A stretch of DNA of 29,043 nt, from positions 1 to 29,043 of IMG/VR virus record IMGVR_UViG_3300021598_000043; one strand, written 5' to 3'. The notes under the pieces are model-generated. The model worked only from the letters and a program-made list of their open reading frames with translations. It made no database searches and was not told where the DNA came from. The position numbers and the translations under genes were made by a program. Positions 2,821-21,209 of the stretch are shown piece after piece. The DNA comes from a virus. Every line of letters starts with the position of its first letter. The stretch's first letter is position 1.

Positions 2821-2828
2821 TATATTTG
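2821..2828 (+). promoter_or_regulatory. Putative -7 promoter element TATATTTG
   Basis: An exact TATATTTG lies 8 bases after the stop of the DnaA-like gene. No well-spaced -33 TTG was found (nearest at 2791-2793, 27 bases upstream). It could start transcription of the glycosyltransferase module, but it also lies inside a frame that looks coding (2818-2946). Confidence 0.4.
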
Positions 2829-2946
2829 TACACGCACTCCTTCGACATTACCTAAAAAAGACGAAGAAAAATATTCTTCTAAAATTGAATCACCTATTTA
2901 TAAACCAAGAGAACAAAAACCACATATTCTTGAGTTATATGATAAA

Positions 2947-3213
2947 ATGAAAACGCAAAGAATGATTGTAGAAATAGATAAATCAAATGTATCAATAGAA
3001 GAAAAAATGTTTTTAATAGAAGCAGCAAGAAGACATACTGTTTTTAATTATGAAAAAATAGCTGACTATTATGCTAATGCAAGTAAAGAAATGCAAGAAT
3101 TAATGGAAAGGTCAGCATTAATAATTATAGATTTTGAAAAAGCTATTGAATATGGATATGTTAAAATGTGTGAAGAAATAAGAAAACAATATCTTGAAGA
3201 ATATGGAGAATAA
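2947..3213 (+). CDS. Conserved phage protein next to glycosyltransferase, apparently 5'-truncated
   Basis: From its first ATG the product has 88 residues, mostly helical, including the well-formed segments FLIEAARRHTVFNYEKIADY and LMERSALIIIDFEKAI. The same frame stays open upstream to 2818 with no ATG, GTG or TTG. The residues it would encode there (for example KIESPIYKPREQKPHILELY) look like protein rather than noise. The gene therefore seems to be the C-terminal part of a longer family whose N-terminal part was lost. From memory, similar segments occur in larger phage proteins near DNA-modification genes; this was not checked. It ends one base before the preferred start of the glycosyltransferase gene. 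Codon use (AGA, GAT, AAT, ACA) matches that gene rather than the flanking genes. Confidence 0.6.
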   Translation: MKTQRMIVEIDKSNVSIEEKMFLIEAARRHTVFNYEKIADYYANASKEMQELMERSALIIIDFEKAIEYGYVKMCEEIRKQYLEEYGE

Positions 3214-3214
3214 A

Positions 3215-4027
3215 ATGATTGTGTTTATTATTAGTCACGGAAGACCTGATAATATTAAAACATTAAAATTATTAAGAGCTAGAGGATATACAAGAAAAGT
3301 TTATTTTGTTCTTGACAATGAAGATAAGACTATTGAAAAATATATAAAAAACTTTGGTGCTAATAACGTATTAGTATTTAAGAAAAAAGAAATAGCCGAT
3401 TTAACAGACGAAGGAAATAATTTTGATAATAGAAGAACAACAACACACGCAAGAAATGCTTGTTTTGATTTAGCAGAAAAATTAGGTTATGAATATTTTT
3501 TAGTGTTAGACGATGATTATTATTCTTTAGGTTATAGGTATGAAACTGGCGAAAAGAAAATAAACAATCTTGATAAGGCTTTAGATATAGTTTTAAAATT
3601 TTATGCAAATACAAATATTAAAAGTATTGCCTTTTCTCAAGGTGGAGACCACATTGGAGGTTTTCAAGGTATAAAGTTAAAAAGAAAATGTATGAATAGT
3701 TTTATATGTAGCACAAAAAGAAGATTTTGGTTTGTTGGACAATTAAATGAAGATGTAAATACTTATACATCACTTGGTGCAAAAGGAGATGTTTTTTTTA
3801 CTTTTACAAATATAAACTTATCTCAAGGTGATACTCAAAGTGCAAGTGGAGGAATGTCTGACGCATATAATTTAAGTGGCACTTATGTTAAATCTTTTTA
3901 TACCGTTATGTATCATCCAAGTGGATGTAAAATAAGTGTTATGAATACAAAACATACAAGAATACATCACTCAATATCCTGGAAAAATACAACTCCTATG
4001 ATTATTAATCAAAAACATAAAAAATGA
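3215..4027 (+). CDS. TET-associated-type glycosyltransferase (TAGT), putative DNA base glycosyltransferase
   Basis: The product (270 aa from ATG 3215) looks like the TAGT family, GT-A fold glycosyltransferases described in phages beside TET/JBP base oxygenases, where they attach sugars to hydroxymethylated pyrimidines in DNA. Visible features are ISHGRPDN (residues about 6-13), which binds the nucleotide-sugar end, a conserved TTHARNACFDLA helix (76-87), and the metal-binding DDD after a beta strand (FLVLDDD, 95-101). An alternative ATG lies at 3203 and a TTG at 3194; 3215 was chosen because it follows the previous stop by one base and an A-rich leader, and begins directly with the first beta strand. 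Codon use is clearly A/T-richer than in neighbours. No TET/JBP oxygenase, hydroxymethylase or nucleotide-sugar gene is in the window; such a partner may lie elsewhere. The stop overlaps the next start (ATGA). Confidence 0.75.
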   Translation: MIVFIISHGRPDNIKTLKLLRARGYTRKVYFVLDNEDKTIEKYIKNFGANNVLVFKKKEIADLTDEGNNFDNRRTTTHARNACFDLAEKLGYEYFLVLDDDYYSLGYRYETGEKKINNLDKALDIVLKFYANTNIKSIAFSQGGDHIGGFQGIKLKRKCMNSFICSTKRRFWFVGQLNEDVNTYTSLGAKGDVFFTFTNINLSQGDTQSASGGMSDAYNLSGTYVKSFYTVMYHPSGCKISVMNTKHTRIHHSISWKNTTPMIINQKHKK

Positions 4028-4656
4028 GTGGTTGGATTAAAATACATCGCAAGTTTTTAGACTGGGAGTGGTTTAATAAAAGCGAAGCAGTGCATTTATT
4101 TATTTATTTAGTAATGAAAGCAAATCACAAAGATGGTCAATGGCAAGGAATGGATATAAAAAAAGGGCAATTTGTTACATCTTTTGGTAAGATTTCAAGC
4201 GATACAGGTATAAGTTTACAGACGATAAGAACACTTTTAAAAAAGTTTGAAAAAACAAACGAAATTAACACGCAAACAACAAACAAATATACTATTATAA
4301 CTATTTGTAAATATGAATGTTATCAACAAGAAAACGAGCAACCTAACACGCAACTAACAAACGAACAACAAACAACTAACAATCAACTAACAACAAACAA
4401 GAATGATAAGAAAGAAAAGAAGTTTATAATACCAACTTTTAATGATGTTTTAGAGTACTGTATGCAAAACGATTTAGAAGTAGACGGAATTAAATTTATT
4501 AACTTTTACGAATCAAAAGGTTGGATGATTGGTAAAAACAAAATGAAAGATTGGAAAGCTGCTGTAAGAACTTGGGCAAAGCCTAAACAACAAGTACAAA
4601 TTTCACCTGAAGAAGAAAAAGCAATAAGACTCGGATTTTTAAAACCTAACAAATGA
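4024..4656 (+). CDS. DnaD-like replication initiation protein
   Basis: The 210-residue product begins GWIKIHRKFLDWEWF and continues with a winged-helix-like region (residues about 10-95, including KGQFVTSFGKISSDTGIS and TIRTLLKKFEK). This is the layout of phage replisome organisers that bind the origin and load the helicase. A low-complexity linker rich in N, Q and T (about 99-126) joins it to a C-terminal DnaD-type domain with NFYESKGWMIGKNKMKDWKA and AVRTWAK (about 160-190). The linker repeats are encoded by AAC/CAA/ACA runs. The gene overlaps both neighbours as ATGA and is followed by the helicase gene, the standard initiator-helicase order. Confidence 0.8.
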   Translation: MSGWIKIHRKFLDWEWFNKSEAVHLFIYLVMKANHKDGQWQGMDIKKGQFVTSFGKISSDTGISLQTIRTLLKKFEKTNEINTQTTNKYTIITICKYECYQQENEQPNTQLTNEQQTTNNQLTTNKNDKKEKKFIIPTFNDVLEYCMQNDLEVDGIKFINFYESKGWMIGKNKMKDWKAAVRTWAKPKQQVQISPEEEKAIRLGFLKPNK

Positions 4657-8197: not shown

Positions 8198-8449
8198 ATG
8201 GAAACAAAAGTAAACGGAGGAGCAATCTTCAAAAATGAGAAAAAAGCGGACACGCACCCTGACTACAAAGGTACTATTAACGTAGATGGTCAAGACAAAG
8301 AAATAGCGTTATGGGTTAAGCAAAGCGCAAAAGGAACTACTTACTTTTCGGTAAAGATTTCAGAGCCTTACAAAAAGACGGAAGAACAACCGCAAGGTAA
8401 ATGGATTAAACCCGAACAAGTAACACCTAAGAATGATTTGCCCTTTTAG
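8198..8449 (+). CDS. SSB-like / DUF736-type single-stranded DNA-binding protein (83 aa)
   Basis: The product has a compact beta-rich core, GAIFKNEKKADTHPDYKGTI, followed by KEIALWVKQS and TYFSVKISEP, as in small phage OB-fold or DUF736-type proteins. It ends in NDLPF, which is the acidic-hydrophobic tip that bacterial SSB proteins use to recruit partner enzymes. Its place inside the ERF-exonuclease operon supports a role in coating single-stranded DNA made by the exonuclease. Length 83 is shorter than cellular SSB (about 150-180). Confidence 0.7.
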   Translation: METKVNGGAIFKNEKKADTHPDYKGTINVDGQDKEIALWVKQSAKGTTYFSVKISEPYKKTEEQPQGKWIKPEQVTPKNDLPF

Positions 8450-19649: not shown

Positions 19650-21209
19650 ATGTATGGATACGGAAATAGTATGTTCTTAGCAACACACGGAATATTAGCG
19701 AGGACTGCATCAGGAGGAGGAGTTGACCCCGATGCACAAGCATTCATAACAGCGGCTGCAATTACAGACCCTACTCAACAAGCGGCTATTAATCAATTAG
19801 TAGTTGACTTAAAAGGGTATAGCATTTGGAGTAAAATGAAGGCTTTGTATCCTTTTGTAGGTGGAAGCAGTACAAGTAATTCTTACAACCTACGCAATAC
19901 AGCACAATATCAATTATCATTTAGTGGTGGTGCAACACATAATTCTAATGGTTATACGTCTGGTGTTAATGGATATGCAAATACGGGATTAAATCCAAAT
20001 ACAGCATTTAGCACAAATGATTCAATGCATTTATCATTGTATTCAAGAACAAATAATGATTTAGGAGGTTTGGATTTTGGAGGTTTAAATGCGTCAGCTG
20101 TAACTGGTTTATATGCGAGATTTTCAAATAATGCTTATGCTTATATTAATGGAGGCTCAGGAGTATTAACTGGAAACACAAATTCAACAGGTTTTTATGT
20201 TGGAACAAGGACGGCTTCAAATGTTTTAAAATTATTTAAAAGTGGAACACAATTAGGAAGCACATATAAAGGAGCAAATGGAGCAAGACTTGATTTAAAT
20301 GCTTTTTTAGGCGCTCTAAATGTTAGTGGAACAGCTCAATACTACACACAAAGAAATTACGCTTTTGCCTCAATAGGTGATGGTTTAACAGACGCCGAAG
20401 CACTTAACTTTTACACAGCGGTACAAGCATTTCAAACAACACTCGGACGTAGTATAGGCACACAAACAGTAAGTGATGCTGATGCACAAGCATTTGTAAC
20501 TAACGCTGGTATAGTTGACCAAGTAGAAGCTAACGCAATAAACAACTTAGTAATAGGCTTAAAAGCTGATAGTTTGTGGACTAAAATGAAAGCGGTATAT
20601 CCTTTTGTTGGGGGAACGAGTACAACGCATAAATATAATCTTGTTAATCCTTTAGATACTGATGCTGCGTTTAGATTAGTGTTTAGCGGTGGTTGGACAC
20701 ATAGTTCAACAGGTGCTACTCCAAATGGTACTAATGGTTATGCAGATACTAAATTAATTGCACAAAATGTTTTAGGTTTAAACTCGACAAGTTATGGAGT
20801 TTATTCAAGGACAAATGTAGATAGAAATGCGCCTTCTATTGGCAATGTAACAGGTGGTGCAAGTGCTGAATGTTCTTTATGGTTAAGGTCTGGAAATCTT
20901 ACATATTTAAGAGTAAATAATCCAAGTGCTTCAAGTCAAGCAAATTCAGATTCAAGAGGTTTATTTATAGCAAATAGAGCAAATTCAACACAAATAAATT
21001 TACAAATAAGAGGAACGCAATATACTTATAGCAATAATAGTAATTCACTTTATGTAAATGCTTTTCATTTAGGCGGTGTCAACCCTAACTTTTTTGATAA
21101 TAAAGAAATTGCATTCTCATTTATAGGAGATGGTTTAACAAGTCAAAATATGACTGACTTAGATACTCGTGTAACTACATTTCAAACAGCATTAAATAGA
21201 AACGTATGA
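19650..21209 (+). CDS. Tail fibre/receptor-binding-type protein with two tandem modules (519 aa)
   Basis: After a short N-terminal segment (residues 1-27) the product consists of two tandem modules of about 240 residues each: residues 28-267 and 278-517. Each begins DAQAF, followed by NxL-V-x-x-LK...W-x-KMKA-x-YPFVGG, then a S/T/N/G-rich lectin-like section with FSGG and THxSxG, and ends with FASIGDGLTDAE or FSFIGDGLTSQN and TFQTxLxR. The beginnings and ends of the modules are close matches, the middles have diverged. The composition and location next to fibre genes suggest carbohydrate or surface binding at the tail tip. The middle of each module uses more A/T-rich codons than its ends. Confidence 0.75.
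   Translation: MYGYGNSMFLATHGILARTASGGGVDPDAQAFITAAAITDPTQQAAINQLVVDLKGYSIWSKMKALYPFVGGSSTSNSYNLRNTAQYQLSFSGGATHNSNGYTSGVNGYANTGLNPNTAFSTNDSMHLSLYSRTNNDLGGLDFGGLNASAVTGLYARFSNNAYAYINGGSGVLTGNTNSTGFYVGTRTASNVLKLFKSGTQLGSTYKGANGARLDLNAFLGALNVSGTAQYYTQRNYAFASIGDGLTDAEALNFYTAVQAFQTTLGRSIGTQTVSDADAQAFVTNAGIVDQVEANAINNLVIGLKADSLWTKMKAVYPFVGGTSTTHKYNLVNPLDTDAAFRLVFSGGWTHSSTGATPNGTNGYADTKLIAQNVLGLNSTSYGVYSRTNVDRNAPSIGNVTGGASAECSLWLRSGNLTYLRVNNPSASSQANSDSRGLFIANRANSTQINLQIRGTQYTYSNNSNSLYVNAFHLGGVNPNFFDNKEIAFSFIGDGLTSQNMTDLDTRVTTFQTALNRNV
19731..20450 (+). repeat. Fibre module, copy 1 (coding repeat)
   Basis: This encodes residues 28-267 of the duplicated fibre protein. It is separated from copy 2 by ten codons (SIGTQTVSDA). 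Confidence 0.75.
20481..21200 (+). repeat. Fibre module, copy 2 (coding repeat)
   Basis: This encodes residues 278-517. Both copies share DAQAF, KMKA-x-YPFVGG, the FSGG block and GDGLT in the same order, offset by 250 residues. The DNA has diverged in the middle part. Confidence 0.75.

Follow-up and report, generated by a model that had tools for sequence, protein, structure and literature searches.

Glycosyltransferases of the TAGT family are named for their association with a TET/JBP gene, and the family was reportedly defined in a 2013 paper. The DNA analyzed here (the window, a linear IMG/VR fragment of 29,043 bases without end repeats) encodes such an enzyme, and a six-frame profile search of the whole record agreed with an earlier note on this DNA that no TET/JBP or thymidylate hydroxymethylase accompanies it; no C5-methylase was found by that search either. 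For sugar-nucleotide enzymes, Pfam scans covered about 30 of the window's predicted proteins. What, then, does a TAGT of this kind act on, and with which partner? The question reaches beyond this virus, as solitary TAGTs (288/753 phage genomes, without alpha- and beta-glucosyltransferase) have been described with their function open (PMC13216743). The genes at the center of the analysis, and the next gene downstream, are as follows.

2824..3213, + strand: UP partner gene, about 129 aa if read from ATT 2824 (homologues, conserved residues, purifying selection)
3203..4027, + strand: TAGT-family GT-A glycosyltransferase, 274 aa (PF20691, phrog_842, motifs, GT-A model)
4024..4656, + strand: DnaD-like helicase loader (phrog_2514, E 1.5e-33), a neighbor only, outside the module

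Profile searches bore out the earlier proposal of a TAGT-type glycosyltransferase: the Pfam profile PF20691 (TAGT) matched residues 1-212 (E 6.5e-35; 121.4 bits against a cut-off of 27.5), and phrog_842 was the second profile match (E 7e-63). The motifs that the earlier note had listed are all present in the sequence, namely, ISHGRPDN at 3230-3253, TTHARNACFDLA at 3440-3475, and the DDD metal motif at 3509-3517, which lies within LDDDY at 3506-3520; an NEDVN motif follows at 3746-3760. Among 49 TAGT homologues, DDD (D99-D101), E179-D180, and H251-H252 of the C-terminal RxHH are invariant, and the (N)ED motif aligns with the NED or ED of Aeromonas 65, Serendipitous, and T6. While the gene end at 4027 stood, the start had to be moved from 3215 to the in-frame ATG at 3203 (MENKMIVF...), because this ATG matches the start of the homologues and overlaps the stop of the upstream gene, as theirs does.

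The AlphaFold2 model of the protein (pLDDT 81.6, pTM 0.84) adopts a GT-A fold, with TAGT proteins as its best viral matches (TM 0.82-0.84) and weak similarity to GT-A enzymes in the PDB (TM about 0.45); a sequence search of solved structures with the TAGT as the query gave no match. The best PDB fold match was AvpGT (9jn3), a nucleoside 3'-O-glucosyltransferase (PMC11959488), which was not taken as a clue to the acceptor, since its TM score was only 0.45. Given the invariant motifs, the GT-A model, and a low dN/dS (about 0.1-0.17 relative to its relatives), the window TAGT looks like an intact enzyme. Its membership in PF20691 rests on the profile, and the family name does not describe the branch to which it belongs, here called the UP-linked branch.

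UP is the name that we give to the previously unannotated gene or domain upstream of TAGT, which the earlier note had overlooked even though it overlaps the TAGT start. In the window, UP was called only from ATG 2947, yielding 88 aa. An in-frame stop lies at 2815-2817, and the UP frame contains no ATG, GTG, or TTG between that stop and 2947, while ATT 2824 as a start gives the 129-aa product, approximately the length of the homologues. Because the residues KYSSKIESPIYxP, common to UP homologues, are encoded 5' of ATG 2947, and codons 2857-2946 are under purifying selection (dN/dS about 0.1-0.24), the window UP should start earlier than ATG 2947. A rare start, damage, or a sequence error may account for the missing usual start.

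A homologue search returned 83 UP homologues, nearly all located at position -1 of TAGT. The polar residues R72 H73, Y85, E97, and D105 (numbering of the L018 protein) are invariant in phages of both bacteria and archaea; UP matches no known enzyme family and has no recognizable metal or cofactor site, and its predicted model is poor (pLDDT 56). For the window UP, the match to phrog_620 (ParB-like) is confined to the C-terminal part of that profile, and the ParB N-terminal domain (PF02195), which fused UP homologues do carry, has no match in the window. Phage annotations repeatedly give the label ParB-like to the gene that overlaps the start of TAGT.

The linkage between the two genes holds in both directions. 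We chose 89 loci by their TAGT, 86 of which had enough upstream sequence to test for UP, and found UP beside TAGT in 85; the lone testable locus without it is that of Lactobacillus phage Ld17 (L089), whose TAGT has an internal deletion. Conversely, all 47 UP-selected loci in bacterial genomes, spanning Bacteroidota, Bacillota, Pseudomonadota, Verrucomicrobiota, and others, carry a TAGT that is adjacent or one gene off and usually overlapping, and every record with UP in the phage collection (28/28) also carries a window-type TAGT. Related phages and prophages with the pairing number about a hundred. The next commonest neighbor family, terminase, occurs in 21 of 78 dereplicated groups, and a search of 136 loci, 4 kb to either side, revealed no conserved third gene; a SAM methylase, a radical SAM protein, a P-loop kinase fusion, and tandem TAGTs were each confined to a few loci. 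As far as the sequences go, UP is the actual partner of TAGT in the UP-linked branch. The tree groups UP-linked TAGTs together, possibly with T4-like TAGTs nested among them, and a single UP-linked clade is neither supported nor contradicted.

The module's TAGT is present in 968 of 5,426 complete E. coli genomes, with an annotated example within a Rac-like prophage. The Rac prophage of E. coli K-12 MG1655 (L101, 1418500-1427500) matches a TAGT-bearing Rac-like prophage identically as far as the ParB part of ynaK, after which UP and TAGT are missing; ynaK looks like a remnant of the UP-TAGT module. The Lactobacillus delbrueckii phages Ld17 and LL-Ku both have an incomplete TAGT, and Ld17 also lacks the ParB-UP gene, which gives the impression that TAGT and ParB-UP decay together. 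Several prophage loci of gut Bacillota and Bacteroidota carry two or three tandem TAGTs after one UP (L126, L133, L134, L135, L141, L151, and L121), which suggests sugar chains or different sugars. Other variants are a single open frame in which a P-loop kinase-like part precedes TAGT (L145:6342-7745) and, in one prophage locus, a SAM methylase between UP and TAGT.

UP occurs in two forms, either as the C-terminal part of a longer fused protein or free-standing. Fused proteins, of about 240-340 aa, are commonest in prophages, and their N-terminal part is a ParB_N domain where tested. Free-standing UPs, at 83 loci, have a short N-terminal stretch ahead of the conserved core, and in 72 of these loci (25/34 groups) this stretch contains Q-x-[SDN]-[LM]-F, a pattern found in 1 of 3,622 other ORFs (first 25 residues scanned); Q and F are constant because the pattern demands them, and beyond the fifth residue after Q the sequence varies. 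This pattern is similar to the bacterial clamp-binding consensus QL[S/D]LF, and one UP variant (L021, QLNLF) is identical to the UmuC motif QLNLF (PMC3716654). The peptide comes mainly from one group of related phages. Loose forms occur in other host phyla (QFTMF in L109, QKTLF in L110, and QSELF in L112), and several groups of free-standing UPs lack even these; the window UP is without a clamp-like peptide.

A further fusion was found in one contig group (L039), where the C terminus of TAGT is joined to an SSB-like domain (residues 290-370; phrog_18154, E 8e-12). The window encodes a protein of this type as a separate gene.

8198..8449, + strand: SSB-like small protein (phrog_18154, single strand DNA binding protein, E 3e-12)

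The ParB domain, the clamp-like peptide, and the SSB domain may represent three ways to reach DNA. We propose DNA as the target, if indirectly, because of these ParB fusions, clamp-like peptides, and the SSB-like fusion, together with the binding of T4 alpha-glucosyltransferase to the T4 clamp gp45 (PMC13216743). In T4, clamp binding is not the main determinant of the alpha-glucosylation share (PMC13216743).

If DNA is the target, the acceptor could be the 5-hydroxymethyl base of the canonical pathway, made by a TET/JBP or hydroxymethylase encoded beyond the fragment. Since absence from a fragment alone says little, we extended the search from the window to 40 viral contigs that carry a close TAGT and to 8 annotated phages, 49 related records in all, and found TET in 1/49, a thymidylate synthase (TS) in 1/49, and C5-MTase in 0/49; as positive controls, TET was recovered in 5/5 annotated TET phages, and TS-family genes, including gene 42, were recovered in T6. 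That the window is a fragment leaves room for such an acceptor, as do the sole TS-family gene, in Vibrio phage pv27, and the sole TET, which lies about 4 kb downstream of the window-type TAGT in a close relative (L014). However, this TET belongs to a separate module (L014:7300-10000) in which a ParB-like fragment, a second TAGT, and TET stand beside terminase genes, and the complete genomes of c5, jlb1, HHTV-2, and NTR1 carry UP-TAGT with no TET, TS, or C5-MTase. We consider a base of this kind distinctly unlikely as the acceptor. The expectation that TAGTs as a rule adjoin TET/JBP, from which the earlier note had started, does not hold for the UP-linked branch, where 48 of 49 records are without TET; among the three options that it offered, a partner elsewhere in the genome is disfavored by the complete relatives, and a different pathway is favored. 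The best reading is that no phage TET/JBP, TS-type hydroxymethylase, or C5-methylase would supply the acceptor. For HHTV-2, a paper in which this virus is treated among the haloarchaeal tailed viruses gives no information on modified DNA.

Other explanations change the target or the role of UP. The E. coli copy is named a GREB1-related protein in RefSeq, GREB1 is reported to glycosylate a protein, and GT2-type GT-A enzymes use many acceptors, all of which would suit an enzyme that glycosylates protein or RNA, with UP picking the target. We think this unlikely, as the ParB-domain fusions, the clamp-like peptides, and the SSB-like fusion all indicate DNA, and ParB-like genes also precede TET in actinophages. 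The enzyme that is missing might be UP itself, with an active site, formed by the invariant R-H, Y, E, and D, that hydroxylates or otherwise activates the base for TAGT; conservation of these polar residues across phages of bacteria and archaea, the position of UP in the place of TET, and its obligatory pairing with TAGT fit this idea, which nevertheless appears very improbable for a protein without a known enzyme family, a recognizable metal or cofactor site, or a confident model. Finally, the absence of a usual start codon over 2818-2946, downstream of the in-frame stop, and the decay of the module in Ld17 and the K-12 Rac prophage could be taken to mean that the window phage carries a decaying, nonfunctional remnant whose UP has lost its normal start. 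With a full-length TAGT retaining every conserved motif and both genes under purifying selection, this is scarcely credible.

We therefore favor, at about an even chance, a model in which UP and TAGT constitute a two-gene, replication-tethered DNA glycosylation module that works without a TET-made base. TAGT would hold a metal and a host nucleotide-sugar via its DDD motif and would move the sugar onto a base in DNA. UP would be an obligatory small helical partner, docking TAGT and recruiting it to DNA by means of the ParB N-domain in the fused form or, in the free-standing form, by means of an N-terminal peptide binding the host replication clamp, and such tethering would result in new phage DNA being modified during its synthesis. 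TAGT might act on an ordinary base directly, or UP might help to make the acceptor. The data establish the family, the fold, the intact catalytic motifs, the linkage of UP to TAGT, the lack of known partners in complete relatives, and the motif statistics; we infer the DNA target, the clamp binding, the UP-TAGT docking, the acceptor, and the glycosylation of the phage DNA. The link to GREB1, a clamp peptide found mostly in one phage group, the poor UP model, and the fragmentary record all speak against the module reading. A more far-reaching version, in which UP-TAGT is a self-sufficient, clamp- or ParB-guided system that glycosylates an ordinary unoxidized (or UP-activated) base and is widespread, including in about one-sixth of complete E. 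coli genomes, is possible but rather doubtful.

Several known systems resemble the proposed module in part. TET-associated TAGTs (P12024L, Mycobacterium phage Serendipitous, and the second TAGT of L014) share PF20691 and a DxD-type motif with the window TAGT, and those of Serendipitous and L014 also lie near a ParB-like gene and terminase; unlike the window TAGT, they stand beside TET, lack UP, and are very distant in sequence, with long branches. The T6 beta-glucosyl-HMC-alpha-glucosyltransferase (YP_010067197), of the same Pfam family as the window TAGT, is a DNA glycosyltransferase adding a second glucose (PMC13216743). It acts on already glucosylated hydroxymethylcytosine, and the T6 genome contains gene 42 and an alpha-GT, whereas the window, a fragment, has no PF00303 TS-family match (although T6 gene 42 was detected as a control), and none of its scanned proteins is a T-even alpha- or beta-GT. 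T4 alpha-glucosyltransferase has a sliding-clamp (gp45) tether like that proposed for UP (PMC13216743) but differs in having a GT-B fold, needing hydroxymethylcytosine, and binding the clamp itself without a partner. Actinophage ParB-TET-terminase loci share with fused UPs the ParB N-domain and a ParB gene overlapping the modification gene near terminase; their ParB-like genes, however, lack the UP C-terminal domain, and it is TET, not TAGT, that lies next to them.

In the papers searched, among which the original TAGT paper was missing, neither the UP partner nor the clamp-like peptide was described, nor a ParB with an associated glycosyltransferase; the proximity of ParB to TAGT may have been noted before. 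By homology we class the enzyme as a TAGT; the two-gene UP module appears to be the new part. It names a partner for one large branch of solitary TAGTs, with a testable targeting mechanism, and the copy in the E. coli Rac-like prophage offers an accessible model. The pairing suggests a sugar-coating of DNA that needs no known oxidized base. Should an ordinary base prove to be the acceptor, this would be new DNA chemistry, with expected effects on restriction, CRISPR, and sequencing.

Some minor observations were made along the way. The annotation of NC_051587, NC_047987, and NC_020847 lists the phage TET genes as queuine tRNA-ribosyltransferase. The Serendipitous locus (L103:813-3091) has the order ParB, TET, TAGT, and then a protein with a PIG-L/LmbE-like PHFDD motif, which may point to an acetylated amino sugar with removal of the acetyl group at a later step. 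In the window itself, positions 19650-21209 encode a 519-aa protein with two similar halves, and an 87-base internal repeat occurs at 19790 and 20539.
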